DNA of 64,000 bases from Lentzea waywayandensis (GTDB lineage: Bacteria; Actinomycetota; Actinomycetes; Mycobacteriales; Pseudonocardiaceae): contig NZ_FOYL01000017.1 in the NCBI RefSeq assembly GCF_900115955.1, positions 1 to 64,000 on the forward strand. Direction: 5' to 3'. The notes under the pieces were generated by a model, which saw only the letters and a program-made list of their open reading frames with translations, did no database searches and had not been told where the DNA came from. Shown piece after piece: positions 2,427-23,642 of the stretch. Both the position numbers and the translations under genes were made by a program. Position 1 is the stretch's first letter, and each line of letters starts with the position of its first letter.

Positions 2427-2645
2427 TCAGATGACCTTGACCGCCGCGTTCGCCTGGAAAGACACGTGCACGTGGTCCAGATGGCTGACCAGGAGACCAC
2501 CAAGGTCCTTCATCGCGGACCAGGCCGCCGCCGTCGTTATAGCAATGTCCTTCTCCGGCAACTGCCAACTCAGTCCGAGGCCTGTTTCGCCGCCACGAGT
2601 CGACGTGCGAGTCAGCTCTTGAACGGCGTCCCTGAAACCGGCCCT
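2427..2645 (-). pseudogene. Decayed small ORF at the 3' end of the trypsin operon
   Basis: Downstream of the trypsin gene the minus strand stays open for 72 codons (FRDAVQELTRTSTRGG through to DHVHVSFQANAAVKVI and a stop at 2427). An in-frame ATG at 2666 would give the start, but a TGA at 2646-2648 interrupts it after six codons, and no other start codon lies between. The shape, a helix followed by beta strands in about 75 residues, resembles the small accessory proteins that accompany trypsin-type conflict genes, but I cannot assign a family. It is either broken by a nonsense mutation or read in an unusual way. Confidence 0.35.
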
Positions 2646-2676
2646 TCAGGTGGACAAGACATTCATGCGGAGAAGG

Positions 2677-3624
2677 TCACCACAACCCGCCGGGAACTGA
2701 TCGGACCCATGCGGCGTGCACGTCGACGCGGGAGTAGATCCCGCCGTCACCGCACGGGCGTACCGAACTGGCAGTGGCCCGGGACGTGACCCCAGCCAGC
2801 AACCACTCCTGGCCCGACCACACGTAAGCGGGCCCGCCACTGTCGCCGGTGCAGCTGTCCCGGTCGAGCATCGGTGATCCGGCGACGAACTCCAGCGCCG
2901 GATCGGCTCCGAACCTCGGGTCCTGGCTCGCCATCGGCACGTCGACCCGCCTGCGCTGCCCGTAGCCGCGCCTGCCCGCGGTGTCGGTGTTGCCGTAGCC
3001 CGCGAGCCGGACCGACGGCACGGCCGGTGGGGCCTGGGCCATCTTCCTGGGCTCAACGTCGGTCACCGGTTCCGACAGGATCAGCACGGCGATGTCGTTG
3101 ACCCTCTTGTCGTAGCCGGGGTGCTTGACGCTCTGGGAGACGTTCACGATCCGCCCGTCCTTCGGGAACCTCACGTCGGTGCCGAAGAAGACGCGCGATG
3201 AGCACGCGCCGATGCAATGCGCCGCCGTGACGACGACGTTCGGTGCCACCAAGATTCCCGAGCAGCACCAGCGGTTCGTGGCTCCGACGGCGACGCACTC
3301 GGGGAAGTCCGCGGTCGGCTCGCCGCCGACGATGAACGCCTTCGACTCGCCCGCCGCGGAGAGGTTCTCCAGGTAGACACGGTCGAAGAGAACGCTCGCC
3401 TCGGCATCGTCGTCGTCCCCCACCGCTGCACGCCTGTTGTCCTGGCGTGCTGCCACGAGCTGGTCGCGTACCTGCGCAACGTTCCGGCCGAGGTCACCCT
3501 CCGAGAGACTCGCCACCTGGTTCGCCAGCGAGTGGTAGACGACGGCGAACTTGGCGTCGTCGGCTCCAGCGATGGACCGGGCCAGCTCGGCGGTCGCGGC
3601 CAGGTGGTCGCTCAGTGCGGTCAT
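2677..3624 (-). CDS. Cytoplasmic trypsin-like serine protease zymogen
   Basis: This 315-aa protein is a chymotrypsin-fold (S1) protease. A new N-terminus motif IVGG is at 98-101 and the triad is complete: His136 in TAAHC, Asp177 in NDIAVL and Ser262 in TGDSGGP. Asp256, six residues before the serine, corresponds to Asp189 of trypsin, so cleavage after Arg or Lys is expected. Cysteine pairs typical of the family are present. Residues 1-97 form a helical leader without a signal peptide or membrane segment, so the enzyme should stay in the cytoplasm as an inactive precursor. The residues before IVGG are KAF rather than a basic residue, so it may need another protease for activation. The start ATG overlaps the stop of the HExxH gene (ATGA), which makes it the last intact gene of the operon. 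Confidence 0.85.
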   Translation of the reverse strand: MTALSDHLAATAELARSIAGADDAKFAVVYHSLANQVASLSEGDLGRNVAQVRDQLVAARQDNRRAAVGDDDDAEASVLFDRVYLENLSAAGESKAFIVGGEPTADFPECVAVGATNRWCCSGILVAPNVVVTAAHCIGACSSRVFFGTDVRFPKDGRIVNVSQSVKHPGYDKRVNDIAVLILSEPVTDVEPRKMAQAPPAVPSVRLAGYGNTDTAGRRGYGQRRRVDVPMASQDPRFGADPALEFVAGSPMLDRDSCTGDSGGPAYVWSGQEWLLAGVTSRATASSVRPCGDGGIYSRVDVHAAWVRSVPGGLW

Positions 3625-4952
3625 GAGTTCTTCTCCGTCATCTCGAAAAGTGCGTGCAGCGCCGCTCCTGCTGCCCTGTCGTTGGACGAGGGCACGGATG
3701 TCCGGCGGGCCTCGTTGCGCCGCCGGTTGTCCAGAACGCTCTGAATCTTCACGACGATCGCCCGCTGCGGTTCAGCGTCGCCTGGTACGCGGTCGAATGC
3801 GAGGCGCGCCGCTGCGACGAGCGCCCGCACGTCCTCGGTGTGCGTGAGCGACTGACCGACCGCGGCGGCGTGGGCCGTGAGAGCGGCCTGGCGTTCCTGC
3901 TCCTGGGAAAACCGCACCCGCTCCAGCATGGTCGCGCCCTGGAATCCCTCGTACGCACCGTCGAGCAGGGCCGGAACGACGAGGTCGACGTCGTCCAGGT
4001 AAGGGTCCGAGGACGGGTAGTTCTCCTGCCAGGCCGCAGCCCTGGTGTCCGCCGCCTCGACGAAGCCGTTGTGTCGCAGAGCCTTCGTGACGAGCGCGAT
4101 CCGCAGCGAGGCCGGCGGGTGGTCGTTCGCCGCGGACTCGGGCGGGAACTCCGCCCGCACCTTGTCCGGGTCCGCGGCAAGCAGATCGGCCAGCGCCGAC
4201 GCGTAGGCAGGGCCTGCCGCGAGCACCCCGTAGAGGTCCGCGAAAACCTCGGGACCCCAGTACAGCCAGGCGTCCCGCCGGTCGCCTGGCAGGTCCGCGA
4301 CCGCGCCAAGCAGGTGCGTCTCCGCCTCGGAGCCGAGTTTCAGATCGGTCCACACCACGTGCCCGACCTCGTGGGCGACGAGGACCATGTCCGCGAGGTG
4401 GGCGAGCTGGTACCACGGCAGCCCGATCACAGGAACCGGCAACTCGGTCACGAACCGCAGGTACTCGATGCTCTGCTGACCGCCGGCCCGCTCCGGGGTG
4501 AACTGCCTGCCCCGGTCCAGCGTGAACGGGCTGAAGTCCCCGTTCAGGAACACCAGCGCGGTGTCCTTGCCGAGGTGTTCCGCGCCGAGCCGGTAGCACT
4601 CCCAGGTGAACTCGTCCGCAGCGGCGAGGTACTGCTGGTACCAGGAGACGTACCGCTGACCGAGTTTGGACCGGTAGTAGTCCCAGATCCGGTGCACCTC
4701 CAGGACACGCCGCTGTACCTTGCGGCACTGTCGCAACACCTCGTCCCCGTCCGCGGGAATGGCGTCCATCTCAGCGGAGATCACGTCCACCAGTCCGCGC
4801 AGCTGCTCGGTGAGCCGCCGCACCTGGGAGTTGTGCTTGCGCAACGGCTTTCCGTCGGCCGTCTCCTCCAGCCAGCACTCGAAGTCCGCGTCCACCCCGC
4901 GCACCTGATCCGCGAGCTCGGCGAGCTTGCGTTCCCGCAACGACATCCTCAT
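3621..4952 (-). CDS. HExxH zinc metallopeptidase-like protein
   Basis: A 443-aa soluble protein. The start is the ATG at 4952, which overlaps the stop of the upstream NTPase gene (ATGA); longer readings run through the NTPase gene and are not credible. Residues 1-130 are helical. AHEVGHVVWTD at about 193-203 is a zinc-binding HExxH motif, and about 40 residues later PEVFADLYG (about 234-242) supplies a glutamate suited to be the third ligand, as in gluzincins (ExxxD). The C-terminal 150 residues are helical and charged. The family is not one I can name; peptidase activity is inferred from the motif alone. Coupling to a trypsin gene and to CHAT genes suggests one step in a proteolytic relay. 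Confidence 0.7.
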   Translation of the reverse strand: MRMSLRERKLAELADQVRGVDADFECWLEETADGKPLRKHNSQVRRLTEQLRGLVDVISAEMDAIPADGDEVLRQCRKVQRRVLEVHRIWDYYRSKLGQRYVSWYQQYLAAADEFTWECYRLGAEHLGKDTALVFLNGDFSPFTLDRGRQFTPERAGGQQSIEYLRFVTELPVPVIGLPWYQLAHLADMVLVAHEVGHVVWTDLKLGSEAETHLLGAVADLPGDRRDAWLYWGPEVFADLYGVLAAGPAYASALADLLAADPDKVRAEFPPESAANDHPPASLRIALVTKALRHNGFVEAADTRAAAWQENYPSSDPYLDDVDLVVPALLDGAYEGFQGATMLERVRFSQEQERQAALTAHAAAVGQSLTHTEDVRALVAAARLAFDRVPGDAEPQRAIVVKIQSVLDNRRRNEARRTSVPSSNDRAAGAALHALFEMTEKNS

Positions 4953-7900
4953 CCACCTCCGGTGAACCTGAGCCACGGCAGGTGGGTGTGCAGCGTCGTG
5001 CCCGCGAACGCCAGCACCCGATCGATCCCGGTGTCGTCGCGGACGAGCGACCGCAACCGCCGGACCGTCTCGCCGAGGGAGTCCCCCGTGGCGAAGGACT
5101 CGATCATCTCGTTGACGAGCAGGTGCCGTTCCTCGTCGGCCAGTCCTGTGCCCAGCACACCCGAGCACCGTCCCAGCGCGAACAGCTCGCCGGCGTAGGC
5201 GTTGCGCAGCAACAGGTACCGCGCTGTGTCGACGAGGCTCGACGGACGGTCGACGTCGAGCACGACCAACGGCCGCACGTCGTCAGCTGGCAGCTGCGCG
5301 AGCAGCCGGTCGACGCCGGTCGCCGACAGCTGGGACTTAAAGGACCCGAAGGTCATCGCGACGCCGTCGGGTGAAGGCTTGATCCCACCCGCGAGGTGCA
5401 CGATCCCAAGCCGCTCCCCATTGCTGACCAGCTGTTCCACCATGTACGACAGCTGCGGCATCGTCGGCCGTTCGACCACCGAGATGTTGATGAAGCCGAA
5501 CCGCAGGTAGATCCGCGCGATGTCCTCCGCCGTGCTCAACCTGCGGCGAGATGTGTGCATACCGTGCTCGTTGCCGGACAGGATCAGCACTCTCGACCGG
5601 GAAAACTCGACAAGGCCGCGTTGCAAACGGTCCAGCACCTCCGCGTTGATGACGTCGCTCGGTTCCAGGTGCTGCCTCTCACGCCATTTCCGCAGCGCGG
5701 AGACCGTCTGCGGCCCGATCTCGCCGTCCAGCACCAGTTTCGCGCCGATCAGCCGGTTGAGCGCGAACTGGACGTGGCGGGCCTCCTCGAACCGCGCTGT
5801 GGTGTGCCCACTCGTCCGGTAGAGCGCGGCGACCGACGGGCTGAGGGTCACGAACTGGGAACCGCCGCGCAGGCGGCTGAGCTCCCACGGCACGGCGTCG
5901 AGCCTGCGGTCCTCGATGTCGCACCGGAAGCCCAACGGCGTCTTGCCGGCGGAGAGCGCGGCCGGTGCGGCGGACGGCAGCAGCGCCGAACCCAACTCCG
6001 CTCCGACCTTCTGCCAGTCGCGCACGAGCCGTTCATCGAGGTCGTCCGCCAGCACGGTCCGCCCGACGTCGTGGTTCGGCGAGAACTGATGGCGTACCTC
6101 GGTGGACGGCGGCACGAACGTCTCCACCTCCACCTGTCCTTTGGCCGACACCCCTATCCGGGCGGTGCAGCGCGGCACGACGATCTGGGAGGTCTCGGTG
6201 GCATCCGTCCTGCGCAGTCCTCTCACCGCCAGGCCGAGAGCGGCCAACGCGGCGGCCGCGGTGACCGCGTAGGGGCGCCAGTCCTCGGTGTTCTGCTTGT
6301 CCAGCTGGATGGTCCTGCTCACCGCGTCCGCGTGGCGTGCCTGCCACTGCGTGCCCTCCGCCCGGTCGAGGCATGCCTCGGCCCGGTCCAGCAGCCGACG
6401 GGCCTGCTTCGGCCTTTCCTGGACGAGTTCTGCCTCCGCGCGTTCCACCAGGAACTCGAAGCACAGCATGCGGTGCTCCCGGAACTCCTCGACGAACGCG
6501 TCCACGGTCGTGTTGTTCGGGAGTGCCTGGCTGCGGTGCCTGCGCAGCCGGTCGGTCGCCAACGCCCATTCGCGCACGAAGTAATGCGAGCCGCCCTTGC
6601 GGTACTCGTGGCGGATCCAGGAGAGCCTGCCCGCCGCGTCGGTCGTGTGGGCGGTGAGCCGGTCGAGTTCGACGCTGACGAAGTCGAGCTCGGCCTGGTC
6701 TGCATCGGTGAGGTCCTCGTCCCCGCTCAGCCGCAGCAACGGGCGCAGCGCCACGAGCCGGTCCTGGAGCTCCTCGGAGGGAAGATCCTCGATTCTGCCC
6801 AGCTCCCGCAAAGCCCGCAGCCGTGCGGAGACCGGCGTGATCAACGGCAGGTTCTTCTCCAGCAGTTCCAGGAACGGGACCGACCAGTCCGGGTGGCCGA
6901 GCGCCAGTCCTTCCACGGCGGCGAGCACAAACATCTCGGGAGGGTTCCACCTGCCGTCCAGCCAGCGGAGAGCACTGCGCAACAACGACATCGCGGCTTC
7001 AGGTTCGCGGCGACGGCCGAGCAGTTCCACGCGCGCCAGGTAGTAGGAGAGCCGCACCGGATCGTCGGACTCGCCGAGAAGCTTCATCGCCTTGGCAAAG
7101 TGAGTGTCGGCGGCGGCCAGGTCACCGAGATCCCGCATGTTCACCAGTGCCGAACTGACATGGCAACGGGCCGCACCAGCGCTGTCACCTCGGGTGAGCC
7201 AGATGTTGCGGGCAAGTTCCAGCTCCAGCAAGGCCTGGGGGTACTCAGCGACCGCGGCAGAGGAGCGCGCCGCGACTTCGAGCCCGGTCGCTGAAGTGTG
7301 ATGAGTGAGGGACTCCCCGATGTGGCGCACACGCGAGTACGCGGAGAGCGGGTCCCGGCGGGCCAACGCGACCTGAGCCGCCTCGACGTTGATCGAGTGG
7401 CGGTCAGGCTTGTGAGCGTGCTCGGCCGCCCAGGTCAACCTGCCGCTGGCGAGTCCCAGTTCGACGGCGACCAGGTCCAGCTCAGCGCGCTGATCGGCCG
7501 GCAGGTCCACGTCGGCCAGGATCAGTTCCAGCTCGCGCATCGCTTCCCACAGTTGTCCGAGCCGCTGGTGCGCCCGGACCACCCGGCACCGCAGCGCGGG
7601 CGCCCACTTCCACGCGGACAACCGTTCGGCGGCGTGCACGGCCCTGAGGTAGAGGGACGGCGCGTCCGCGAAACCCTGTTGCAGCCTGATGTCCGCCAGC
7701 AGCACGTACAACCGCACCTCGTCCTGGGTGTGGCGGGCGTGGGGCAGCGCCTCACGCACGAGCGCTTCGGCGGCGGCCGAGTCGCCGGTCTGGAATTTCA
7801 GCGCCGCACGCACGTAAGCGAGCCGGTGCTCGGGGATCACGTGCTCCAGCCCGGACCTTTCGATCAGCGTCAACTGCTCGACGACCTGGCTCCACCGCTG

Positions 7901-10075
7901 GTCGTCGTCCACGACGCCGAGCACGCGGGCTTCCTGGGTGGACGCCGCGGCCAGCTCGTACCTCGCCTCGACGACGGTCTCCGGTGAGATCACCGGCTCC
8001 GAGCCGTCCCACAGCAGCGGCTGCCCGTCGTCATCGAGGTAGTCGCGGCACAGCACCTCGTCGGCGAGGTGCGCGCGGACGTCCGCGTCGCCCAACTCGA
8101 CGCGGTCCAGGGCCGATCGCCAGTACGCCGCCGCGCCCGCCCCCTCCAGCTGGAACTGGTGGAAAATGGCCTCAGTGGTCCATCGTTTCCACTGCTCCGG
8201 GTCCTCCCCCGCACGCAGCTCGAAGTAGGCGACCGCGTCTTCATGCAGCCGGCGGTGGATCTCCCTCGGCCGGATGAGCCGACGCATCGGCACCAGGACG
8301 TCGGGGTGGAAGCGCAGCTCGTCCTGCTGCTCGGTCACCCACGAGCTCGTGCTCGCGTACCGGCGCAGCTCCTTCCAGACGAGGTCGAGCGGCAGCGACG
8401 ACCCGGCCGAGTCCAGGACGTTGGTGTGGAACGGGGTGCTGGTGACGTCGAGCGGCGCGGGCAGCTCGTCGGTCTCCGGGTCGTCCACCTCGGTGTCCCC
8501 GGACATCCCCATCCGCAGGTACGGCTCCATCACGTCGACGACGAACTCGAACGTCAGCCTGCGGGGAACGACGCCGTACCGCAGCAACCACCGTACCCGG
8601 GGGTCCTGGATGCGGCTGATCACCCGCAGCACCAGGTAGATCAGGTCCGCCTCGAACTTCGTGACGTCGTGGGCCGTGAGGTTCAGCCGTTGCTGTGCCA
8701 GGTCGGCAAGCAGCGCGAGGGTGAACGGCCGGCCCGCCGCTTTGGCGGTGATCGCGGCCTGGAGGTCGGAGCCTTCGATACCGCGCAACGTGAGGTATCG
8801 ACCGGAGTCCTCGTCAGTGAACAGCCCTGGGGTGCGGTCGGCGATGCTTGGGAGCCCGGACATCCGCTCGCTGACCGCGTACCGGCCCGCGAGCACGAAA
8901 TGCGCTGTTCTGCACCGGTCGTGCACCGCGCGGACCACGTCCATCAGGCCTTCGAGCCCGTTGCCCGTGCGCAGGTGCAGCTCTTCCAGCGTGTCGAAGA
9001 CGATCACCACGGAGCGGTCGGCAAGCGCGCTGTTGAACGTGCGGACGAAGGTGTTCACCACCAGGTCCCGGAGACCGTCGTCCTGCGACTTGACCCACTT
9101 GCTGGCGGCGGACCTCTCCTCTTCGGACGCACGACGGCGCAGCAGGGCGATCGCATACCCGTGCACGGCGAGGAAGTCCGCGAACGGCGCACGGGTCAGC
9201 TGCTGGTCGAGCTGGAAGGCGATGTCGATGAGCACCAGCCACGGGTACTTCGCCGCGTTGGCGAGGTCGACGAAGTCGAAGTCCGTGGCCGCACAGGGAA
9301 CGCGGTCCGGCACGAGCACACGGGACAACAGCCAGCGCAGCTCCATCGTCTTGCCCTGGCCACCGCGCGCGTGCACCTGCATGAGCCGCGGGCCGCCCCG
9401 CCTCAGCAGGTTCAGGTAGTCCGCTCTCGTCCCGGACATTTCGAGGAACGTGCCGGTCTGCAGGTACTCCGCCGACCACATGCTCCTGGCCTGCAAGTGC
9501 GCGGCCCGGTGCTGCCCGAGCGCGAACAGCTCGGTGCCGAGCAACTGCGCGCGCCCCTCGTCGGCGAGCACGTCGACCAGGTCCTGGCACCGCGCGAGCT
9601 GGAAAGCCCGGTCCGCGACGTCGAACCGGTCCGCGAACCACTTTCCTGCCCGCCGCTGATCCACGAGCACCAGCGCGGCCAGCAGATCCACCTCGGCGGA
9701 GGCGATGCCCTCGTAGTGCACCGCCAGCCGCTCACCCAGCTCGCGCAACGGTTCCGGCACCTCGTGCGCGTCGGATCCATCGCTCCACCACGAGAACCAG
9801 GCGGTGCGGCGGGCGGACTCCCGCAGCCGGAACAGCTCGACCGGCCCAGGCAACTGCTCCACTTCCGCGCAGCACCGCACATCGTCGAACGGAGCCACCT
9901 CTGCGTCAGCGCTGGCGGTCAGCACGGAGTCGTAGAGGTACTGGTCGAAGGCACGCACCACGGAACAGCGCTTCAAAGCCTCGGTCAGCGTCGCCGGGCG
10001 CAGGGCGGCCGCGATCTCGTCGACAGAGCTGCCCTTGCTCAGCAGCTCCAGCACCTGGGCGAAGTCCGGTTCCAC
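4949..10075 (-). CDS. Giant STAND-type NTPase with helical repeats, membrane segment and degenerate CHAT-like C-terminus
   Basis: This 1708-aa protein starts at a GTG at 10075, one base after the stop of the upstream CHAT gene, with GAAGGTGAG ahead of it. Residues 1-200 are a helical adaptor-like region. The P-loop ARGGQGKTM is at about 237-244 and the Walker B strand VVIVFDTLEEL at about 356-366, as in STAND ATPases. A winged-helix-like region follows, then TPR-like helical repeats from about 700 to 1250. RPYAVTAAAALAALGLAV, near 1275-1292, looks like one membrane helix. The C-terminus follows the CHAT plan (DAVPWELSRL, a peptidoglycan-binding-1-like insert with GEIGPQTVSALRKW, IVHLAGG, then LVVLDVDRP). 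The histidine (about 1560) is kept, but aspartate stands at about 1609 where active CHAT proteins have cysteine. It is probably a sensor and scaffold that switches on ATP and signals to the neighbouring proteases. Confidence 0.75.
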   Translation of the reverse strand: MEPDFAQVLELLSKGSSVDEIAAALRPATLTEALKRCSVVRAFDQYLYDSVLTASADAEVAPFDDVRCCAEVEQLPGPVELFRLRESARRTAWFSWWSDGSDAHEVPEPLRELGERLAVHYEGIASAEVDLLAALVLVDQRRAGKWFADRFDVADRAFQLARCQDLVDVLADEGRAQLLGTELFALGQHRAAHLQARSMWSAEYLQTGTFLEMSGTRADYLNLLRRGGPRLMQVHARGGQGKTMELRWLLSRVLVPDRVPCAATDFDFVDLANAAKYPWLVLIDIAFQLDQQLTRAPFADFLAVHGYAIALLRRRASEEERSAASKWVKSQDDGLRDLVVNTFVRTFNSALADRSVVIVFDTLEELHLRTGNGLEGLMDVVRAVHDRCRTAHFVLAGRYAVSERMSGLPSIADRTPGLFTDEDSGRYLTLRGIEGSDLQAAITAKAAGRPFTLALLADLAQQRLNLTAHDVTKFEADLIYLVLRVISRIQDPRVRWLLRYGVVPRRLTFEFVVDVMEPYLRMGMSGDTEVDDPETDELPAPLDVTSTPFHTNVLDSAGSSLPLDLVWKELRRYASTSSWVTEQQDELRFHPDVLVPMRRLIRPREIHRRLHEDAVAYFELRAGEDPEQWKRWTTEAIFHQFQLEGAGAAAYWRSALDRVELGDADVRAHLADEVLCRDYLDDDGQPLLWDGSEPVISPETVVEARYELAAASTQEARVLGVVDDDQRWSQVVEQLTLIERSGLEHVIPEHRLAYVRAALKFQTGDSAAAEALVREALPHARHTQDEVRLYVLLADIRLQQGFADAPSLYLRAVHAAERLSAWKWAPALRCRVVRAHQRLGQLWEAMRELELILADVDLPADQRAELDLVAVELGLASGRLTWAAEHAHKPDRHSINVEAAQVALARRDPLSAYSRVRHIGESLTHHTSATGLEVAARSSAAVAEYPQALLELELARNIWLTRGDSAGAARCHVSSALVNMRDLGDLAAADTHFAKAMKLLGESDDPVRLSYYLARVELLGRRREPEAAMSLLRSALRWLDGRWNPPEMFVLAAVEGLALGHPDWSVPFLELLEKNLPLITPVSARLRALRELGRIEDLPSEELQDRLVALRPLLRLSGDEDLTDADQAELDFVSVELDRLTAHTTDAAGRLSWIRHEYRKGGSHYFVREWALATDRLRRHRSQALPNNTTVDAFVEEFREHRMLCFEFLVERAEAELVQERPKQARRLLDRAEACLDRAEGTQWQARHADAVSRTIQLDKQNTEDWRPYAVTAAAALAALGLAVRGLRRTDATETSQIVVPRCTARIGVSAKGQVEVETFVPPSTEVRHQFSPNHDVGRTVLADDLDERLVRDWQKVGAELGSALLPSAAPAALSAGKTPLGFRCDIEDRRLDAVPWELSRLRGGSQFVTLSPSVAALYRTSGHTTARFEEARHVQFALNRLIGAKLVLDGEIGPQTVSALRKWRERQHLEPSDVINAEVLDRLQRGLVEFSRSRVLILSGNEHGMHTSRRRLSTAEDIARIYLRFGFINISVVERPTMPQLSYMVEQLVSNGERLGIVHLAGGIKPSPDGVAMTFGSFKSQLSATGVDRLLAQLPADDVRPLVVLDVDRPSSLVDTARYLLLRNAYAGELFALGRCSGVLGTGLADEERHLLVNEMIESFATGDSLGETVRRLRSLVRDDTGIDRVLAFAGTTLHTHLPWLRFTGGG

Positions 10076-10076
10076 G

Positions 10077-12005
10077 TCAGCTCACCTTCATCTGCGCGAG
10101 CCGCGCGACGATGTTGAGTTGCACCGGCTTCACCGGACCTACGGGGAGCAGTTTGTCGAAGAACTTGTCGAAGCCCTCGGGGATCTCCTGTCCGAGGGCG
10201 ATGAAGATGTCCTCGGCGAGCGAACCGACCATGGAGCGGTCGAAGTCGTCGAGGTCGACGCGGAGGCCGCCGCGATCGTGCGGCCAGTACTCGTCGAGCT
10301 TGTCCGCGCGCAGCACCACGACCAGCCGGACACCGGGAACGTCCCCGTTGAGCGCGGCGAGCAGCAGGTTCGGCAGCAACTGACTGCGGAAGTCGGAGCT
10401 GAACACTTGCTCGACATGGTCGAGGATCAGCACGACCGGGTCCTCGGCACCGTCCACGTTGAGCGCGTTACGAAAGGACTGGAAGAGGTTCTCGACCAGG
10501 CCGACCGCGGCCCTGTCCGAGAGTTGTGGCGTCGGCGCCGGCGTGATCGTAACGAGCGTGCCCTCCTGCTCCACCGGCAGTCGGCCGTCCTTGAAGGACT
10601 CCAGGTCGTGGTTGAAACGGTCGAACGGCGCCTGGCCGTCAGGGTGCTCGCGCGGCCTCTCCTCCGCAGTGTCGCGGATGTTGTACAGCGCCGAGAGGAA
10701 GTCGACGTTGTCCGTGCCGTTGAAGTCGACGTACTTCACCCGGCGTCCGCGGATCAGGCAACGGCGTCGCAGCCAGGTGACGAGACTGGTCTTGCCCGCC
10801 TCCCGGTCTCCGGTGATCAGGAGAAGTTGCTCTGCTTGCGTCTCCCGCTCGGGATCCACGCCGTTGACGAGCTTGTGGCGCTCTTCGACCCGGTCGACGA
10901 AAGCCTTGATCAACTCGGCCTTCTGCTGGCACTCCTTCACCCGGATCTCGGGCAGCACGTCGCACGGTGCCGAGTGCAGGGTGAGGCTCGGCAGGAACCA
11001 GTCGCGCGAACCGGTTACGCCGCTGTGGGTGTAGAGCCGCATCCTCGCCCCGGCGACGGCGGCGTCGATGCCGGCGCCCTCGATCAGCCCTCGATACAGC
11101 TCGCAGCCGAACAGCGCTGCCTCCGGGCCGAGAATGTCGCCCTGCATGCCGACGACCGCGACTGATCCACTGTGGACGAACGCCTCGGTCAGCGCGTCGA
11201 CGTCCTCGACGGCCTTGGAGGTGCGGCAGGCGTTCAGTACGGCGAGCCGGGGTGCGGGTACCAGCAGGTCCGCGATGGCGGAGGCGCGGATCTCCCACGG
11301 CTGCGCGGATCTGCGCACCTTGAGCGCGGACTCCTCGCTGCCCACAACCTTCTCGCAGTGGCCGATGAAGTGAAAGATGTGCGGTGCGAACCGCTGGTAG
11401 GCCACCCGCAGTTCCTCCGCCGTCGGCACGCTGAGGAACTCGGCCTCAACCCATCCGCCTGCGGCCGCCAGAGCGCTCTTGATGCCCCTGATCTCCGCTG
11501 TCGTCTTGATGCCCTCGTCCGGCTCTCCTTCGACGACGAGCAGCCGGACGGGCAACGACCAGTCCGACGGGCCGGCCGAGTACTCGCTGGTGCGCACACC
11601 TGTGTGCTGACCTGTCAGGAACAATGCGGGGCCGGGTCCGAACCTGGTCATCTCCCATGGAATTCTGCGCAGTTCGGGAGCGGCGATCTCCAGCCTGGTC
11701 CTCGTCGCGCCGAGCTTCTGCCATTCCTCACGCGGGGCGCCCTCTGGCAGCAGCAACCGGCCCAGGTACTTGCCGATGTTCACGAACTCCGCGGAGCTGG
11801 GATGCGTCGCGACGAAGTCCTGAATCGCCTTGGTGACCGCCCCGCCGGCGATGACGGCGGGAACGTCCTGGCCTGCCAGATCAGCAGGCAGACTCCACTC
11901 CGCCAACAACCCGCGGACGCCGTTGTCCTCGGCGAAGAGCTCTGCCTGGTATGGACCGGTGCCCGTCACGACGATCACCGCGTCGGCCTTCGACCCACCC
12001 GTCAT
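10077..12005 (-). CDS. CHAT-domain protease fused to a P-loop NTPase
   Basis: This 642-aa protein leads the operon. The N-terminal half is a CHAT (caspase-like) domain: the entry motif RIPWEMTRFG at 114-123, the catalytic His216 in HFIGHCEK and Cys260 in AVLNACRTS. After a linker, the C-terminal half is an AAA-type NTPase with Walker A TGDREAGKTS at about 398-407 and Walker B VVLILDHVEQV at about 523-533, followed by VVVLRADKL, a sensor-like strand. There is no signal peptide. The stop is separated by one base from the GTG of the giant NTPase, so translation is likely coupled. CHAT domains in other bacteria cleave partner proteins when a sensor is triggered; the natural candidates here are the products encoded next to it. 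The start ATG at 12005 has only a weak ribosome site. Confidence 0.85.
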   Translation of the reverse strand: MTGGSKADAVIVVTGTGPYQAELFAEDNGVRGLLAEWSLPADLAGQDVPAVIAGGAVTKAIQDFVATHPSSAEFVNIGKYLGRLLLPEGAPREEWQKLGATRTRLEIAAPELRRIPWEMTRFGPGPALFLTGQHTGVRTSEYSAGPSDWSLPVRLLVVEGEPDEGIKTTAEIRGIKSALAAAGGWVEAEFLSVPTAEELRVAYQRFAPHIFHFIGHCEKVVGSEESALKVRRSAQPWEIRASAIADLLVPAPRLAVLNACRTSKAVEDVDALTEAFVHSGSVAVVGMQGDILGPEAALFGCELYRGLIEGAGIDAAVAGARMRLYTHSGVTGSRDWFLPSLTLHSAPCDVLPEIRVKECQQKAELIKAFVDRVEERHKLVNGVDPERETQAEQLLLITGDREAGKTSLVTWLRRRCLIRGRRVKYVDFNGTDNVDFLSALYNIRDTAEERPREHPDGQAPFDRFNHDLESFKDGRLPVEQEGTLVTITPAPTPQLSDRAAVGLVENLFQSFRNALNVDGAEDPVVLILDHVEQVFSSDFRSQLLPNLLLAALNGDVPGVRLVVVLRADKLDEYWPHDRGGLRVDLDDFDRSMVGSLAEDIFIALGQEIPEGFDKFFDKLLPVGPVKPVQLNIVARLAQMKVS

Positions 12006-12505
12006 GCATCATGTCTCGCAGCCTGAACACGGATGGTTACAAGCCTCACTCGAACGTAGCAGTCCGTCCTCGCCGAGCCGCGCCTGGAATCCGCGCGTGG
12101 CTCGATATTTCCATTTCGAAAGGAATTTCAGCTGCGATCTGAGACGGAAACGAAGTGGCAATCGAGACTGGATGAGCGAATCGAGCGAGGTGCGGTAACC
12201 CAGCGTCGCCACGAGGCGATTGATGGGCATAAAGACGCGGAGATGAACGGTCTGGGCATCGCCGCCACCCGGCGCGACATCGCTGAGGCGATCTTGTCGA
12301 ACGCCGTTGCCGCTGTTGCGGCCTGCGGCAGGACCGCCCCGAACCTGCGCCACGCGCGTACGCGGAGAGGCAGAAGTCGGGGCAGGGGTGGAACTGGTCT
12401 GAGCCGCAACGAGCGTCCGCGAGGTCTGATGGACGAGGTGGTCTTAGCTGGAAACAGTCGTCTCGGTTCGGTCGCACCTACACATCGGCCATAGCGCGTC
12501 GGCTG
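12006..12505. other. Gap upstream of the protease operon, no gene seen
   Basis: About 500 bases with no convincing reading frame on either strand. It must hold the promoter of the minus-strand protease operon that starts at 12005, but I could not pick out -35/-10 boxes with confidence. The stretch is less GC-rich near 12100-12180 than the genes around it, which would suit a promoter. The right part grades into the transposase debris starting at about 12506. Confidence 0.4.
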
Positions 12506-12821
12506 CTAGCGCGTAGCCATACGCGACATCTCGTGCTTGCTCTCGCGTACCCAGCCATGGGTGTGCGCGCCGAGCAGCGGGCCGCTGAACGTCGCGACAC
12601 GGCTGCCGGTGTCGGGTGCCCAGCCGCAGATGATCGCCGTCTGGGGAAAGCGACTCGACGTCCTTGACCGCCGAAGGCCGGCCGAGCAGAACCAGCCGCC
12701 CACCCAGCTTGAGGAGGATGAGGTACAGCAGACGCAGCGCCAAGCCCACGATCATGCCGTCAGACCGACAGAGCCGTCCATGGCAGCTCAGCGCATATGT
12801 GCGGAGTTCTGGCACCCCACA
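12506..12821 (-). mobile_element. Transposase N-terminal remnant with one IS end
   Basis: The minus strand encodes [19 protein letters not shown] then RLVLLGRPSAVKDVE, closely matching the first 35 residues of the transposase at 44177 ([19 protein letters not shown]). The IS terminus TGGCACCCCACA is present at 12810-12821, identical to the right end of that element. After about 35 codons the similarity stops and unrelated sequence follows to about 12506, so only the head of the element remains. The remnant cuts into a carbamate kinase-like frame on its right side. Confidence 0.7.
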
Positions 12822-13166
12822 GGGAACGTCAGCTCCCTCGACTTCCGCCAGGTCCAGACGTTGCAGCGGCTCAGCGTCGGGCGTGCCGAAGTCGGTCATC
12901 ACGGCACGCACGTCGGTCAGCAGGAGCAGGCGGTCGGCCTTAAACGCGATCGCGAGCTCAGCCGACGTGAGGTCCTTGTCCACGACCGCCTCGACGCCGT
13001 GCAGTTGCCCGCTGTCGACAACGGGTGCTCCTTCCCCACCGGCACAGACCACGGCCGTCCCGCCACTCACCAGCTGCTCGATGGACTCCTGTTCGACGAG
13101 TCGGACATGCTCGGGTGCTGGCACGACGCGGCGCCAGTGCGGGCCGTCCGCGGCCATGGTCCAGCC
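12822..13166 (-). pseudogene. Carbamate kinase fragment
   Basis: The minus-strand frame reads DGPHWRRVVPAPEHVRLVEQ, then a GGEGAPVV nucleotide-site segment, HGVEAVVDKDLTSAELAIAF, and ADRLLLLTDVRAVMTDFGTP. These match the middle and end of carbamate kinase (amino-acid kinase fold; makes ATP from carbamoyl phosphate), including the KD of the DKD motif. The first 120 or so residues of a normal 310-aa enzyme are missing, replaced by sequence from another small gene. The C-terminus is cut off by the transposase remnant. Certainly not functional. Confidence 0.7.
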
Positions 13167-13204
13167 GTTCTGATCTGTGAGCTGGTCGGCTTGGGTGCCT
13201 TCGG

Positions 13205-13377
13205 CCTGTGTGCCGCCACGACCAGGCCGCCGGCGCACAGGTCGTTCGTCGCTGAGAAGTCGCACCACAGGCCGTCGACGGCCAAGCCGGGGACAGAGCC
13301 GCCGGACAGCTCGGCGCGGCCTTCGGCGACTGCCTTCAACATGGCCCTGTGCCTTGCGGTGTAACCGTTGTGCTCAT
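13205..13377 (-). pseudogene. Frameshifted fragment of a small actinobacterial protein
   Basis: The ATG at 13377 sits 7 bases after GGGAAGGGG and begins MSTTV. After about five codons the family-like sequence GYTARHRAMLKAVAEGRAEL then GLAVDGLWCDFSATNDL continues in another frame, so about one base has been gained or lost. The pattern (YTARHRAML, AVAEGRAEL, DGLWCD) is one I associate with short uncharacterised actinobacterial proteins. The frame then runs directly into the carbamate kinase fragment, which shows a deletion fused two genes. Function unknown. Confidence 0.45.
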
Positions 13378-13498
13378 CTGACTTCCCCTTCCCTCAGCCG
13401 TTTGCGTGGTGAGGCAAGGCTGCTCTTCCCGCCTGGGTGTGACGCAGATCCCAACGCGGTGACTAGGTCGGCACCAACGTCGCACCTCGGGAAGGGGC

Positions 13499-15025
13499 CT
13501 ATTCCGACTCGGTGTCGGAGCTATCGAGAAGCCGGTTGAAGACCCACGCCGCAAGTGCCCACGGACCTCGCTCGATGTCGTGCTCGGTCTCGACCCTCAG
13601 GAAGTAGGGAGACTCGCCGTACATGCCCTCCTTGCCCCCGATCCAGGCGTTGGCGTCGTACTCACAGGTCACGTGCGCCTCGTCGGTGCCGACCGAAATC
13701 CACAGCTCGCCCTCGTTGTGGTGTGACCACGAGAGGCGGACCTGCTGGGTGGTTCCCTTTACCAAAACCTCCTCCTCGGCCACGTTCCAGCCACCCAGGT
13801 GGCCCGACGGCAACTCGAGGCCAGTCACACCCTCCAACGCGTCTGCGAGTTCGTTCCCTGCCTCCCAGTTGTGGTCTGAGCGCGGAGACGAGTTCGACAC
13901 CACGGTCTCGGAGTCCGGCTCGACCTTGACGATCTTCCCGTTCTCGACCGTCACCATGAGCCGCGTGCGCGCGATGAGCTGATCCGAATTCAGGGTGCGC
14001 TCCCCCGCCGTATCACCGCCCGTCAGCGAGTAGATGTCGGTGATCTCCGCTTCTGCGAGGAAGAGTGCGATCGCTCGGAACACCATGCGCTTTGGCGCGC
14101 GCCCCGGCTCGTGCCGTTCCGGCGCTTCACGCTCCACCCACCAGAGGCCGGCGAGCTTGGTCAGCTTCGTCAGGCTCGCACTGATCAGACCGTGGTGTTC
14201 CCAGTCGAGGTCCACAGCCTCGAGTACGTCGACGGTCGTTCCGACCAGCTGAACAGCGTCGGATTTCGTGGCATCGTCGAGGTTCAGCGGCAACTGGTCG
14301 GCGAGGTACCTCGCGATCATCCATTCCTCGTCGATGCTGGCGAACACGTACTCGAAGAGGCTCGCACGCACCGTGTTCGCCTCGCGCACCAGCGGTTGAC
14401 CGTAGCCCCATGCTGCATAGGCGCTCTTGATGTCGGCGTCCTTGCTCAGGAACATCACTCTGTCCGGCTCGCCGGCCTTCGCCACGACGTCGCGAAGCCA
14501 GGCCGAGTCACTGCCTCCGGTCTTCACCAGGTCCGCGCTCTTGGTCTTGGCCGGCTTCCTTTGCAGAACCTGGTCCTTGAGCCCCTCGATCGCGCTCGCT
14601 CCGGTCAACTCGACGACCTTCACGTGAGGCGTATCAGTCAGGACCGACAGAAACTTGCTGATGAGGTCCTCACGACTGAGGTAAGACGGGTTGATCGACG
14701 AGGCGGGCAGACCCGCCCTGGACAGGTGACTGAGCTGGTCGTTGACCACGTTCCGAGCCGCGACCCACTGGGCGGCCAGGTGCTCCGCCCACTCCCAAGC
14801 AACCGGTTCCGGCACCCACACCTGAACGTCGATCTTGGCCAGGTCGGCCGCGAGCGACGCGAGTCTCGGCAGGTCAGGCCCGACCTTGCCGTAGGAGTTC
14901 GCGTCCACCACAACAGCGAGAAGCTTCGTGCGCGTCTCCACATCCAGCCGAAGGTCCTCGTCGGTCGCCTGTGTGGAAGGGCGATTGCTCATCGCGGAAG
15001 TATCCAACGCAGACTTCGTGCCCAC
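13499..15025 (-). CDS. PIN-like nuclease domain protein
   Basis: A 508-aa soluble protein read from a GTG at 15025; a second start, ATG at 14992, is equally possible because neither has a strong ribosome site. The first 220 residues look like a PIN (PilT N-terminus) ribonuclease: VVVDANSYGK with Asp41, PEPVAWEWAEH with Glu73 and Glu78, GGSDSAWLRDVV, and VMFLSKDADIKSA, which provide the spaced acidic residues that bind metal. The C-terminal half contains strand-rich segments I cannot assign. It is a single gene with its own promoter region. A large PIN protein beside NTPase/CHAT genes would fit an RNA-cutting effector or a stand-alone toxin, but this is inference. Confidence 0.65.
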   Translation of the reverse strand: MGTKSALDTSAMSNRPSTQATDEDLRLDVETRTKLLAVVVDANSYGKVGPDLPRLASLAADLAKIDVQVWVPEPVAWEWAEHLAAQWVAARNVVNDQLSHLSRAGLPASSINPSYLSREDLISKFLSVLTDTPHVKVVELTGASAIEGLKDQVLQRKPAKTKSADLVKTGGSDSAWLRDVVAKAGEPDRVMFLSKDADIKSAYAAWGYGQPLVREANTVRASLFEYVFASIDEEWMIARYLADQLPLNLDDATKSDAVQLVGTTVDVLEAVDLDWEHHGLISASLTKLTKLAGLWWVEREAPERHEPGRAPKRMVFRAIALFLAEAEITDIYSLTGGDTAGERTLNSDQLIARTRLMVTVENGKIVKVEPDSETVVSNSSPRSDHNWEAGNELADALEGVTGLELPSGHLGGWNVAEEEVLVKGTTQQVRLSWSHHNEGELWISVGTDEAHVTCEYDANAWIGGKEGMYGESPYFLRVETEHDIERGPWALAAWVFNRLLDSSDTESE

Positions 15026-15081
15026 CCGTGTTGGTCCCTAGGTCCCTGGGGATGGTGCAACACGCTGGTGACGCTCGAAGC

Positions 15082-15231
15082 ATGGCGACCACGACCACGA
15101 CTGCGACCGAGCCCGACAGCATCGACGCGGAGATCGAAAGGATGCGAGGGGCGGCGCGTCGAAGAGGTCAGCCGTTGGCTCCAGGCCCGGACCTCACGGT
15201 GAGCCGCCCGCAGTTGAGCACGGAGCACTGA
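15082..15231 (+). CDS. Possible 49-aa basic protein
   Basis: An ATG at 15082 opens a 49-codon frame (MATTTTTATEPDSIDAEIER, then a basic stretch with MRGAARRRGQ) with G/C-ending codons typical of the region. It lies in the otherwise gene-free 530-base gap between the PIN gene and the TPR gene, and is divergent from the PIN gene. No ribosome site is obvious. It may be real or chance. Confidence 0.25.
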   Translation: MATTTTTATEPDSIDAEIERMRGAARRRGQPLAPGPDLTVSRPQLSTEH

Positions 15232-15422
15232 TATCCGGCGCGTGCGGCGAGCAACTTCTTCGTCGCTGCGGAAAAGTTGGCCCGCTGATCCACTGCACCC
15301 TCGTTCCCAATCAGGCGGAAACTCCACCCGGTTCAATTGGCAATACAACAGTCCACATCGCACGAAGACGACGACCCAGTCAGATCTCGGCGTCGCGGAG
15401 CCCTGGTCGGAGTCGGCGCAGC

Positions 15423-15462
15423 CGTGGTCGTCGAGGCAGCTCTTCTGCTGTCGACGACCACG
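15423..15462. terminator. Strong hairpin, likely terminator of the TPR-SEFIR operon
   Basis: CGTGGTCGTCGA at 15423-15434 is perfectly complementary to TCGACGACCACG at 15451-15462. The 16 bases between contain a further GCAG/CTGC pairing, giving a long, nearly continuous stem. It lies about 95 bases beyond the stop codon of the TPR gene, in the direction of that operon's transcription. There is no T-run, which is usual for terminators in high-GC actinobacteria. Confidence 0.55.
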
Positions 15463-15556
15463 ACGAGGTTGGCCAGCGGCACGGGACATCGCACGTTGAT
15501 CAGCTCACAATACTGAGCGGGCCATATCGATCGGCAACCCAGCAGCCGGTCCTCCG

Positions 15557-18259
15557 CTATCCGTGCCGACCCACCAGAACAGCTCGAGAAGCTCCGTCCA
15601 TCCGGACAAGCCTCTCGACCGCCGCGGCGTAGCGGCTAGCCAGTTCCGGATATCCCGCGGCGGTGAGCGTGTCCGAGCTCATCCCATTGCGGGTCAGTGC
15701 TTCCGACAGGATCTGTGCCCGGCTTTCCTCCAACACTTGCACCGCGGCGATCTCCCTGCTGATCTTGAGGTACGTCACGACCACCTCATCGGCGAAGCCG
15801 GTCGCCTGTCTCAACCAGCCCTCCTTGTGCCGGCGGACCGTCTGCAGGGCGAACAGCCGGCGAGCCGCGTCCAGCCCCCACTCGTGTGCTTCCGCCGCTT
15901 CGTGCCACGCTCCTCGCACGGCGGCGGCACGCCCCCACTTCCGCGCGGCTTGCAGGCACCAGCCGAGATCCGATGCCATGCCCGCCTCGCAGGCGGCACG
16001 GTGCAGGGCGACGGTCTCGGCGACGTCGGCCTCCCCGGCGACACCGCGTTGCGCCTCCAGCGCAACAGCCAGGTTGCTGGCGGCTCTCGCCCTGCTGGTG
16101 CTCCCGGCGGGCAGCGCGGCGAGCGCCCTCCTCAACGCGCTGACGATTGATTCCAGACCTTCGGTGCTGTCCGAAAGCCACCACCGTTCCCACAATGCAC
16201 TGGTCAGGTTCACCTCGATCCGCATGCGGTCGGGAGCCGACTCTGGCAGAAGCGACATCGCCTGCTGGAACAGGTCGATAGCCGCGTCGAGGTGTCGCGG
16301 ATCGCGTTGTTCGTCGTAGCGGTCGGAATGGCAGAGCGCGAGATTGTCCAGGTAGATCGCACGTTCCGGTGCTGTCGACGCCACGGCCCGCGCTGCTTCG
16401 CGGAACGCGCGTTCGGCGTTCTCGCGATCGTTGTGGTCGCCACCGTGCTGAAAACGGGCCTGCAGGCAAGTGGCTCGGTCGTTGAGGAGACCCGCTCTGG
16501 CGGTCGCACCGACAGGAGTCTTCTCGACAGCCTCGTCGTAGGCGGCGATGGCGGCGTCCAGGTCGGCGCTGCTGCCTGTTCGTTCGAATCGGAGATGGAG
16601 CAAACCCGCCCTGTCACCGCGGCACTCCATGCGTACCGGGTGGTGATCGGCGACCAGGTAATCAAGACGGTCGAGCGCCGCCAGCGCCTCGACGAGGTCC
16701 TCCAGCGCACCAAACCGCTGGTACCGCACCGAAAGCGTGCGCGCAAGGCTGCCGAGACCTCTCGGGAGCAACCGCGCGTCGTCGGCGAGGTGCTCGATAC
16801 TCGCACGCAGCGACGTGACGGCCCGGTCGATGTCATGCTGATCGCCCGAGTGCTTGAACCTGTCTCGCAACATGACCCCGAGGTCGTGCAGGGCCGCCCT
16901 GCCCTCAGGCCCCTGTGGCAGACCGTCTCCCGCGATCGCTGCCGCCGCCTGCTCGAACAACTCCAACGCCCTGTCCTGATCGCGGCTGTCACCGGTCGCC
17001 GTGAACCGGTGCGCGTACGCGGCGGCGACTGTGCGCAGACGCTTGAGCTTCGTTCTGCCCTCGAACGAACCACCCGTCGCACTCTGCTCGGCGACGGCGA
17101 TTGCACGGTCCAGGTCCTCGACCGCACCGAGCCGTTCGTAGCGCGAGGTGAGGAACGTCGCGTGGGTGTCGGCGCACAGAGCCTTCAGCGGTGGGAAGTT
17201 CTCCGCGTCCTCAGTCGCCTCCTCCAGCACCTCCAAGGCGGTGTCGAGCCCTTCGACGACACCGAACCGCTGGTACATCAACTCGTGGACGAGCGCCAGG
17301 TTGTGTCCGGTGGCGGCCCGCGACGACGATCCCGGCCGATCACGAAAGCGTGCTTCCTCATACACCTCAACGGCGCGATCACCGTCCGCGCGGCCGCCCT
17401 CGCGCTCGCACCTCAGGCGTAGCACGTCGCCTAGCACCCGCAGTCTGCGCGGCCTGTCCACGTCCGAGATGGCTGTACAGCGCACCGCCTCCTCCGCGAC
17501 CGCGATGGCTTCGTCGAACTCGACGCCCTCGTCCTCGTGGTCGAGCAGGTCGTGGTAACCGCTCGCCAGGTTGGCCAGCCAAAGCCCGTGCTCACGTGTA
17601 CCAGCGTCGCCGTGCCGCACAGCAGCGCGGAACCCATCCACGGCGGCCCGAAGGTGCTCTGGATCCTTCGTCTCCGCGTACATCTCCTGCGCGCAAGTGG
17701 CCAGGTTGTTCCAGAACAACGGCATGTTCGGGTTCTCCGGCGCTGCGGTCTCCACGACGTCCAGGTGCAGGACCATCGCCCGCTCGAGATAGTCCGGATC
17801 TCCGCTCAACCTGAACGCATCACCCAGCACGTTCGCGAGATTGTCCAAGCACAACAGGCGGTCCTCATCCGCAGTCGACATCCGTTCGACGGCCTCTTCG
17901 AGGACCAGCCGTGCTGCCTCCAGCACGGAGGCATCACCGAGTTCGCGAAAACACACGCGCAGGCAATTGCCAAGGTTGTTGAGCAGCGCTGGATCGCGAT
18001 CGAGAGCAACCGCTCGCTCATACGCTTCACGGGCTTCCTGGAGCCCACCGCGCCCGCCGTCTGCCTCGTACCGATCCAGGAGGATGGAGCCCAGCTCGTC
18101 GAAGTAGTCGGCGTTGCCCGTCACAGCAGCCAGTTCCGACCATAACCGCACCGCTTCGTCGGCCTGGTCGAGCGACCCCGTCCGCAGGAACTCGGTTCGC
18201 GCCAGGTCGGCGCGCGCGACCAGATCCTCCTCGTCGAACTGCGTCATGGCGGAGTCCAT
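15557..18259 (-). CDS. TPR-repeat protein of the TPR-CHAT type, lacking the CHAT domain
   Basis: This 900-aa protein consists almost entirely of helical TPR-like repeats (for example REAYERAVALDRDPALLNNL and repeats spaced 45-50 residues apart containing DLDRAIAVAEQ, DIDRAVTSLRA and HLDAAIDLFQQA). In proteins of this family the repeats are followed by a short helical linker and then a CHAT protease. Here the linker is present (VRRHKEGWLRQATGFADEVV and a segment with AQILSEALTRNG) but the chain stops after about 30 more residues, where CHAT should begin. It could act as a sensor for the CHAT proteins encoded separately from 23.6 kb on. It starts 15 bases after the SEFIR gene and is the last gene of the minus-strand arm. 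A second in-frame ATG at 18247 is possible. Confidence 0.75.
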   Translation of the reverse strand: MDSAMTQFDEEDLVARADLARTEFLRTGSLDQADEAVRLWSELAAVTGNADYFDELGSILLDRYEADGGRGGLQEAREAYERAVALDRDPALLNNLGNCLRVCFRELGDASVLEAARLVLEEAVERMSTADEDRLLCLDNLANVLGDAFRLSGDPDYLERAMVLHLDVVETAAPENPNMPLFWNNLATCAQEMYAETKDPEHLRAAVDGFRAAVRHGDAGTREHGLWLANLASGYHDLLDHEDEGVEFDEAIAVAEEAVRCTAISDVDRPRRLRVLGDVLRLRCEREGGRADGDRAVEVYEEARFRDRPGSSSRAATGHNLALVHELMYQRFGVVEGLDTALEVLEEATEDAENFPPLKALCADTHATFLTSRYERLGAVEDLDRAIAVAEQSATGGSFEGRTKLKRLRTVAAAYAHRFTATGDSRDQDRALELFEQAAAAIAGDGLPQGPEGRAALHDLGVMLRDRFKHSGDQHDIDRAVTSLRASIEHLADDARLLPRGLGSLARTLSVRYQRFGALEDLVEALAALDRLDYLVADHHPVRMECRGDRAGLLHLRFERTGSSADLDAAIAAYDEAVEKTPVGATARAGLLNDRATCLQARFQHGGDHNDRENAERAFREAARAVASTAPERAIYLDNLALCHSDRYDEQRDPRHLDAAIDLFQQAMSLLPESAPDRMRIEVNLTSALWERWWLSDSTEGLESIVSALRRALAALPAGSTSRARAASNLAVALEAQRGVAGEADVAETVALHRAACEAGMASDLGWCLQAARKWGRAAAVRGAWHEAAEAHEWGLDAARRLFALQTVRRHKEGWLRQATGFADEVVVTYLKISREIAAVQVLEESRAQILSEALTRNGMSSDTLTAAGYPELASRYAAAVERLVRMDGASRAVLVGRHG

Positions 18260-18274
18260 ATCACAGTCCCGGCG

Positions 18275-19423: not shown

Positions 19424-19454
19424 CGCCACCCCCTGTCGCACCGGTCGCCCCAGC

Positions 19455-23621: not shown

Positions 23622-23642
23622 CAGCCGCGAAGGGCAACACGG

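Follow-up and report, generated by a model that had tools for sequence, protein, structure and literature searches.

Protease-fired gasdermin pores are a mechanism of cell death common to animals, fungi and bacteria, and the SAVED-CHAT type III CRISPR protease cascade and Craspase are CHAT-based systems in which the CHAT protease is a regulated trigger. In the nuclease-protease pairs (Hachiman, AVAST, Lamassu, Canu) the regulated part is a trypsin-like protease, described in the portions of the source used here as fused to the immune enzyme and activating the nuclease (PMC12799240). The CARD-NLR/gasdermin anti-phage systems (those of Lysobacter, and LypABC of Caulobacter) bring together a switch ATPase, one or more proteases including trypsin, and exchangeable death effectors including gasdermin (PMC13236601, PMC9612521), whereas the ternary and EAD conflict systems of multicellular bacteria (MoxR-vWA-VMAP, iSTAND, NucA-trypsin, EACC1-caspase) couple a nucleoside triphosphate switch to caspase- or trypsin-type peptidases (PMC7159879, PMC8195603), also with exchangeable effectors and a bias to multicellular bacteria (PMC7159879, PMC8195603, PMC10907252). 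In these respects all four resemble an operon of four tightly coupled genes (12005-2677, minus strand) in a 64,000-nucleotide stretch of the Lentzea waywayandensis genome (contig NZ_FOYL01000017.1, positions 1 to 64,000; hereafter the window). On balance, we read the operon as a three-gene proteolytic switch controlled by nucleoside triphosphatases (NTPases) and armed with one exchangeable, clade-specific executioner, most likely an abortive-infection or programmed-cell-death system. Its genes are, with expectation values (E) for profile matches:

10077..12005, minus strand: CHAT protease fused to a P-loop NTPase, 642 amino acids (PF12770, E 6.7e-16; AAA_16, E 1.2e-7)
4949..10075, minus strand: giant STAND-like NTPase, 1708 amino acids, GTG start (assigned by hhalign to the family of the first gene and by motifs)
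3621..4952, minus strand: HExxH protein, metallopeptidase-like, 443 amino acids from ATG 4952 (or from a start at 4946) (assigned by motifs)
2677..3624, minus strand: trypsin (S1) with a 97-residue leader, 315 amino acids, the exchangeable fourth gene (PF00089, E 9.5e-27)

The coordinates bear out the compact layout of the original prediction: the CHAT and giant genes are separated by a 1-base gap, the giant and HExxH genes overlap by 4 bases if the latter starts at ATG 4952, and the HExxH and trypsin genes overlap by 4 bases. The lower bound first proposed, 2427, lies 250 bases past the last gene, and no part of the operon is assigned there. Pfam gave nothing above cut-off for the giant and the HExxH protein; PADLOC matched neither of them, and NCBIfam did not match the HExxH protein.

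Each of the described systems also differs from this operon. The CARD-NLR core is, in the parts of the sources used here, a CARD-bearing trypsin and an NLR-like protein, whereas here it comprises a CHAT-NTPase, a pseudo-CHAT NTPase and an HExxH protein, with no Pfam match to CARD in the four proteins; moreover, and unlike in those systems as so described, trypsin and gasdermin exclude each other beside the core. Nor do the four proteins match MoxR, vWA, NucA or EACC1 in Pfam, in contrast to the ternary and EAD systems, and the word gasdermin does not occur in the main texts of PMC7159879 and PMC8195603. Unlike SAVED-CHAT, the operon encodes no SAVED domain or CRISPR protein among its four products, and control appears to lie with the NTPases: the PADLOC SAVED_CHAT match of the CHAT protein (E 3.5e-4, besides mad8 at E 2.4e-5) covers residues 173-319 only, its CHAT part, with no SAVED sensor. 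The CHAT protein of the window also matched PDB 8tl0 (E 1.5e-4), an entry named only 'CHAT domain-containing protein'. As for the nuclease-protease pairs, PADLOC matched the protease part of the window trypsin to LmuA (E 5.6e-11) and Avs1b (E 1.2e-4), but here the trypsin has a gene of its own and a leader, and Pfam gave no nuclease partner. CHAT genes near bacterial gasdermins are already known (PMC9612521); among the matches listed, open-access titles and abstracts hold no description of the present core, most subscription papers lying outside that scope.

The first three genes form a core that is conserved across 31 distinct loci: 29 in Actinomycetota, 1 in Planctomycetota and 1 in Pseudomonadota, the last on a Sinorhizobium conjugative plasmid. 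These are the window, L014, L016, L025-L046, L071, L073-L076 and L077; L015 was dropped as a duplicate of L041, as were L067-L070 and L072 (treated as L027, L035, L026, L028 and L025), and partial or distant relatives (G158/L024, G701/L054, G745/L055, G333/L048, G511/L049 and the Bradyrhizobium plasmid L078) were excluded from the total. The CHAT-NTPase and giant genes are adjacent in all 31 loci, and a both-strand profile search placed the HExxH gene next after the giant in 30. Chance adjacency is thus rejected for the core, since its order recurs in 31 loci, and the gene association that the original prediction relied on is conserved in neighbouring homologues; trypsin, the fourth gene of the order it had proposed, lies beside the core in 9 of the 31. 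A contig scan over one genome per species (84,980 species) with the N-terminal part of the giant as sole bait returned 22 loci; in every one the CHAT gene precedes the giant gene and the HExxH gene follows it, all on one strand, as also in L014 and L016. Five new loci came from the family of the window, four of them with all three core genes (L076 being the exception), and the core of the Sinorhizobium terangae conjugative plasmid NZ_CP121661.1 (L077), annotated there as CHAT domain-containing protein, ATP-binding protein and hypothetical protein, carries all the motifs. Candidate start codons overlap the previous stop at 24 of 25 CHAT-giant and 21 of 25 giant-HExxH junctions.

The CHAT domain of the first gene belongs to the peptidase class by its PF12770 match and its His-Cys dyad, found at the residues originally named:

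11360-11358, minus strand: catalytic His216 of the CHAT domain
11228-11226, minus strand: catalytic Cys260 of the CHAT domain

Both residues align with the catalytic motifs of 25 other rows, and the pair is kept in 31/31 loci (a 26-row alignment representing 25 distinct loci, plus 6 further loci). The giant consists of an N-terminal NTPase (P-loop, with Walker A Lys242), a helical-repeat middle and a degenerate CHAT-like end, or pseudo-CHAT. By hhalign, the profile of its NTPase region matches the CHAT-protein NTPase (probability 98.2, E 5.7e-14) and its C-terminal region the CHAT domain (probability 95.9, E 6e-9), in agreement with the pseudo-CHAT end foreseen at the outset. Despite this homology the giant lacks the dyad: in the window Gly replaces the catalytic His and LDVD replaces LNAC, and over the set the second His is lost in 31/31 loci and the Cys in all 30 scorable copies; an apparent frameshift left the Cys region of L041 unscored (at 14805-15257 of that locus the last part of the giant spans two overlapping reading frames). 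Judged by these profiles, the two NTPases are homologous, as are CHAT and pseudo-CHAT, and the operon thus encodes an active-looking CHAT-NTPase together with a larger NTPase ending in a degenerate CHAT. Walker A and B, a GxP motif, a winged helix and a repeat sensor are traits of STAND NTPases; in the giants Walker A, Walker B and a GxP-like motif are present, with the Walker A lysine kept in all aligned members, and Pfam matches to AAA, NACHT and nSTAND fall below cut-off. Separately, L045 (9989-15871) has an insertion in the NTPase half of its giant, with two profile pieces ~520 bases apart in a frame of ~1961 amino acids. The pseudo-CHAT part of the window giant contains one further segment:

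5624..5782, minus strand: peptidoglycan-binding-1-like segment (PF01471, E 0.089, below cut-off)

PF01471 is above cut-off in 2 of 3 relatives scanned (E 2.8e-6 and 1.4e-6), and the segment is variable in others.

The gene beside the core, in contrast, is exchanged by clade. This slot could be assigned in 27 of the 31 loci: trypsin in 9, gasdermin in 13 (12 divergent, by structure prediction, and 1 canonical), a small two-helix membrane protein in 4 and a subtilisin in 1. Trypsin directly follows the HExxH gene in the window, L014, L025-L028, L035, L071 and L073 (counted from the open frame in L026 and L035, where the start codon is not fixed), and the subtilisin occupies the slot in L016 (PF00082, E 4.3e-51). 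The canonical gasdermin belongs to L041 (Geodermatophilus saharensis), with NF051890 at E 1.3e-35, above the curated cut-off, and PDB 7n51 at E 3.1e-12; the membrane proteins of L029, L036, L043 and L046 are homologous, have two hydrophobic segments and are encoded just upstream of CHAT. A both-strand profile search of the 31 loci found the slot families mutually exclusive beside the core: the trypsin profile matched the nine trypsin loci and otherwise L034 only, whose more distant trypsin lies ~5 kilobases (kb) upstream of the core, and the divergent-gasdermin profile matched in its 12 loci only, as did the canonical gasdermin and subtilisin profiles in theirs. In a phylogeny of 25 of the 31 giants, trypsin loci and divergent-gasdermin loci each form one side of a fully supported branch, and the slot labels require 5 changes, the minimum for 6 groups. 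The window operon itself contains no gasdermin, and searches of its own genome with NF051890 and the divergent-gasdermin profile gave no match, the control of the first search having matched nowhere and the second having been run without one.

Several further neighbours were recorded. L044, from a Planctomycetota metagenome-assembled genome, has a divergent gene (6449-7249) with two hydrophobic segments and a prokaryotic YEATS domain (pYEATS; PF20305, E 1.2e-11), and a hemocyanin/phenoloxidase-like gene (16446-18668; PF00372, E 1.4e-26) convergent with the core, which was rejected as the effector of that locus on account of its opposite strand and single occurrence. In L077 three upstream genes, two with hydrophobic segments, lie beside the core. 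MFS, amidase-like and other genes after the core in several Streptomyces loci, named by eye, were inconsistent and were not counted.

Twelve loci, namely L074 and 11 from Streptomyces or Virgisporangium (L031), encode the divergent gasdermins, proteins of ~272 amino acids, at most 100 bases upstream of CHAT. We modelled the L032 member with AlphaFold2 from 11 sequences, obtaining a mean predicted local distance difference test score (pLDDT) of 71.4 and a predicted template modelling score of 0.68. Gasdermins filled Foldseek ranks 1-8 (best 8sl0, E 2.5e-4, probability 1.00), and VIA-align ranks 1-19 were all gasdermins or gasdermin-like (Z 8.5 to 5.6, where by the tool's warning a Z under 8 may reflect merely a common arrangement), with cholesterol-dependent-cytolysin-like pore formers next, from Z 4.9 downwards. 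The gasdermin pore-domain fold is thus predicted for this one modelled protein, at template modelling (TM) scores of 0.30-0.41, and it is because of the unbroken run of one family in the structural ranks that we call the family divergent gasdermins, a structural inference. A Pro-Gly-Arg-Gly (PGRG) motif is invariant in 12/12 of them, within a linker (residues 226-236) that lies between the pore domain and a C-terminal helix, has a mean conservation of 0.84 versus 0.65 for residues 1-225, and is modelled at a confidence below 50. To judge by its sequence, such a linker would look like a protease site.

The fourth protein of the window is a trypsin (S1) by its triad (H136/D177/S262) and an IVGG start at I98, as well as by its Pfam match. 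It carries the following leader, delimited by a 7-trypsin alignment and the activation-site region of 2 further trypsins:

3334..3624, minus strand: trypsin leader, residues 1-97, ending ...SKAF before IVGG

The original prediction of a cytoplasmic trypsin zymogen holds up in its trypsin domain and leader, while 'cytoplasmic' draws only on hydropathy (no hydrophobic N-terminal segment) and the protein has 7 cysteines. A leader precedes an IVGG-type N-terminus in all 7 trypsins aligned in full. At P1, the position preceding the new N-terminus, 7 of 9 trypsins have Arg, the window trypsin has Phe and the L071 trypsin Gly. As P1 is not conserved, neither self-activation nor one fixed activator is indicated; self-activation as a general rule was rejected on these residues, and with Phe before IVGG the window trypsin falls outside an Arg rule. 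The idea that the leader is an adaptor also present in a protein beside L076 was likewise rejected, the profile score not being significant.

These data bear directly on the ordered cascade of three catalytic classes originally envisaged, that is, a linear zymogen relay in which CHAT activates the HExxH protease, the latter activates trypsin, and trypsin goes on to cut other targets. Three protease-like genes do share one operon, the leader and IVGG-type N-terminus recur, and bacterial protease relays exist, the SAVED-CHAT type III CRISPR cascade being one. Nevertheless, no residue is conserved before the new N-terminus of trypsin, and the slot holds a serine protease in only 10/31 loci (9 trypsins and the subtilisin), gasdermins (13/31) and membrane proteins (4/31) taking its place elsewhere, which refutes a fourth gene that is always a protease. 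A relay of this kind is therefore not supported as the common design, and we consider it unlikely; from the slot exchange across loci, trypsin is an exchangeable output rather than a fixed link.

The HExxH protein has two motifs of note:

4373-4359, minus strand: HEVGH motif
4250-4248, minus strand: Glu of E-x-F-A-D, 41 residues on from HEVGH

HExxH and E-x-F-A-D, the latter with a possible third ligand downstream as in zincins, are kept in 30/30 copies. The metallopeptidase likeness of the original prediction thus stands at the level of motifs, from which the protein is described as metallopeptidase-like and not as a proven peptidase, with no family or significant fold match. Its AlphaFold2 model is confident and mostly helical (pLDDT 88.6); VIA-align, which by its own warning can miss single domains in models of more than 400 residues, listed BepA (Z 6.5, 5.8) and 3c37 (Z 6.2) in the first four rows, inside the tool's stated noise. 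The family occurs in 10/298 genomes of the order, at 12 places, and the giant adjoins the HExxH gene in 4 of those 10 genomes, that of the window included. L024 (G158) contains, at 9157-19343, a permuted relative with the HExxH gene first, then a CHAT gene, then a giant-like gene. A Bradyrhizobium conjugative plasmid (L078, 5322-13394) carries patatin-like, DUF2252 and phospholipase-D-like genes, an HExxH-family relative and two consecutive CHAT genes, alongside a divergently encoded S8 peptidase and, on the opposite strand, another, distant match to the HExxH family; that the HExxH relative there follows phospholipase genes and precedes two CHAT genes is counted in favour of the switch reading. 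A Pfam scan of the genes near distant HExxH relatives was uninformative.

The HExxH protein is the main alternative to CHAT as the cutter of the slot protein, CHAT then processing the switch only. Its motif is as invariant as the CHAT dyad, its gene adjoins the downstream effectors, and the variable P1 of the trypsins would fit a protease with a loose P1 preference. The 12 divergent-gasdermin genes, however, adjoin the CHAT gene and not the HExxH gene, the invariant PGRG favours an Arg-type cut, the predicted fold is unconfirmed and one locus is without the HExxH gene, so that this division of labour seems quite unlikely. We prefer CHAT as the cutter because its dyad is present in every locus and its gene lies beside the divergent-gasdermin gene.

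With CHAT in this role, the switch would work as follows. At rest, the CHAT protease would be bound to the giant in a complex, via the NTPase and CHAT/pseudo-CHAT parts by which the two are related, much as caspase-8 and cFLIP form a pair of enzyme and dead enzyme. A signal of intrusion or damage would be read by the repeat region of the giant, upon which the NTPases would switch and assemble, and CHAT would become active and cut the executioner: divergent gasdermins likely after the Arg of the PGRG linker, whereas in the window trypsin would be freed from its leader and cut cell proteins. The HExxH protein would probably supply a second proteolytic step (processing of CHAT, the giant or the effector) or an off-switch of the system, and its role is the least certain. 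We infer this sequence from sensing to cell death in keeping with bacterial gasdermins, which are activated by neighbouring proteases (PMC9612521). A role in anti-phage defence is suggested by gasdermin biology, patchy occurrence and the plasmid copy.

The system is rare and patchy. In the family of the window, 11/390 genomes match at E 1e-40 or better; the genus has 1 full-length match in 24 genomes, with a second, partial match (E 1.5e-32), and a sample of the phylum 1 full-length match in 396 genomes, with two partial ones. Occurrence is a lower bound, as the species-wide contig scan used two peptide patterns only, and the family and phylum scans scored the two best first-look candidates per genome. 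This distribution bears on an alternative in which the operon serves development or housekeeping proteolysis in filamentous bacteria rather than defence. Most named hosts are indeed actinomycetes of mycelial habit, and the CHAT part weakly matches cyanobacterial HetF (E 6.9e-6, 24.6 bits against a cut-off of 1200), but presence within one genus and family is patchy, a copy resides on a conjugative plasmid in another phylum, 13 loci have gasdermins, and the window has a second conflict-type gene cluster, at 15557-26581:

15557-18259: TPR-S
18275-19828: SEFIR/TIR
19455-21620: TPR
21102-23621: NACHT
23643-24914 and 24866-26581: two CHAT genes

Taken together, these points leave little probability to a developmental or housekeeping function. 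That the fourth genes are accidental neighbours of what is a three-gene system only is highly improbable: 4/31 loci do lack an assigned fourth gene and clades differ in whether the slot lies upstream or downstream, but 27/31 have one of five effector types within ~100 bases of the core (counted without a random-neighbour control), and these types are consistent within clades and mutually exclusive. Two other genes flank the operon of the window:

375-1544: gene for a serine recombinase, immediately downstream (PF07508, E 6.8e-20), which may point to mobility
12444-13268: fragment resembling an amino-acid kinase, on the upstream side (PF00696, partial)

A number of results weigh against the proteolytic switch with a clade-specific executioner that we favour. 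The divergent gasdermins find no sequence-level support in a PDB profile search or in hhalign with the canonical gasdermin, and no Pfam or NCBIfam gasdermin model matched the 5 that were scanned; only two Foldseek hits fall below 0.001, with TM-scores of 0.30-0.41 and root-mean-square deviations of 11-21 over eight gasdermin chains; only 3 chains reach Z 8 in VIA-align, for which a best Z of 7 to 8 is typical when there is no clear match; and the L032 model has a mean pLDDT of 71.4, against 55.9 to 30.6 for the other four models. Foldseek returned no match below 0.001 for the HExxH model, the HExxH gene is missing from both strands of the 19 kb of L076, and 7 of the 12 order-level places of the HExxH family are without a CHAT or giant profile match within ~20 kb, so that the family is not specific to this system. 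The Phe and Gly at P1 of the window and L071 trypsins do not fit an Arg-specific CHAT. Four of the 31 loci (L044, tentatively, with L075, L076 and L077) are without an assigned effector, and the 5 changes on the giant tree, being the minimum, imply that slot exchange was deep and rare, then stable. Finally, 50,697 phage records yielded no homologue of the N-terminal part of the giant, and the 13 pattern matches in viral contigs included no relative.

By analogy, the system seems to be a bacterial equivalent, not yet catalogued, of the machinery by which proteases trigger the death of animal cells. It is possible, though somewhat short of probable, that it represents a separate bacterial 'inflammasome' lineage, in which an active CHAT-NTPase paired with a giant pseudo-CHAT NTPase (like caspase-8 with cFLIP) and an HExxH peptidase would control interchangeable executioners, among them a gasdermin family missed by the models tried and, in the lineage of the window, a leader-held trypsin doing the job of a gasdermin. 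The active/degenerate CHAT pair would then be a bacterial parallel to caspase/pseudo-caspase control, and the PGRG linker together with the slot swap gives a testable rule for what the core cuts. If the reading is true, a branch of gasdermins missed by the family models tried would be added, and the joining of one core to gasdermin or to trypsin according to clade would suggest that a destructive protease inside the cell is able to replace a pore.

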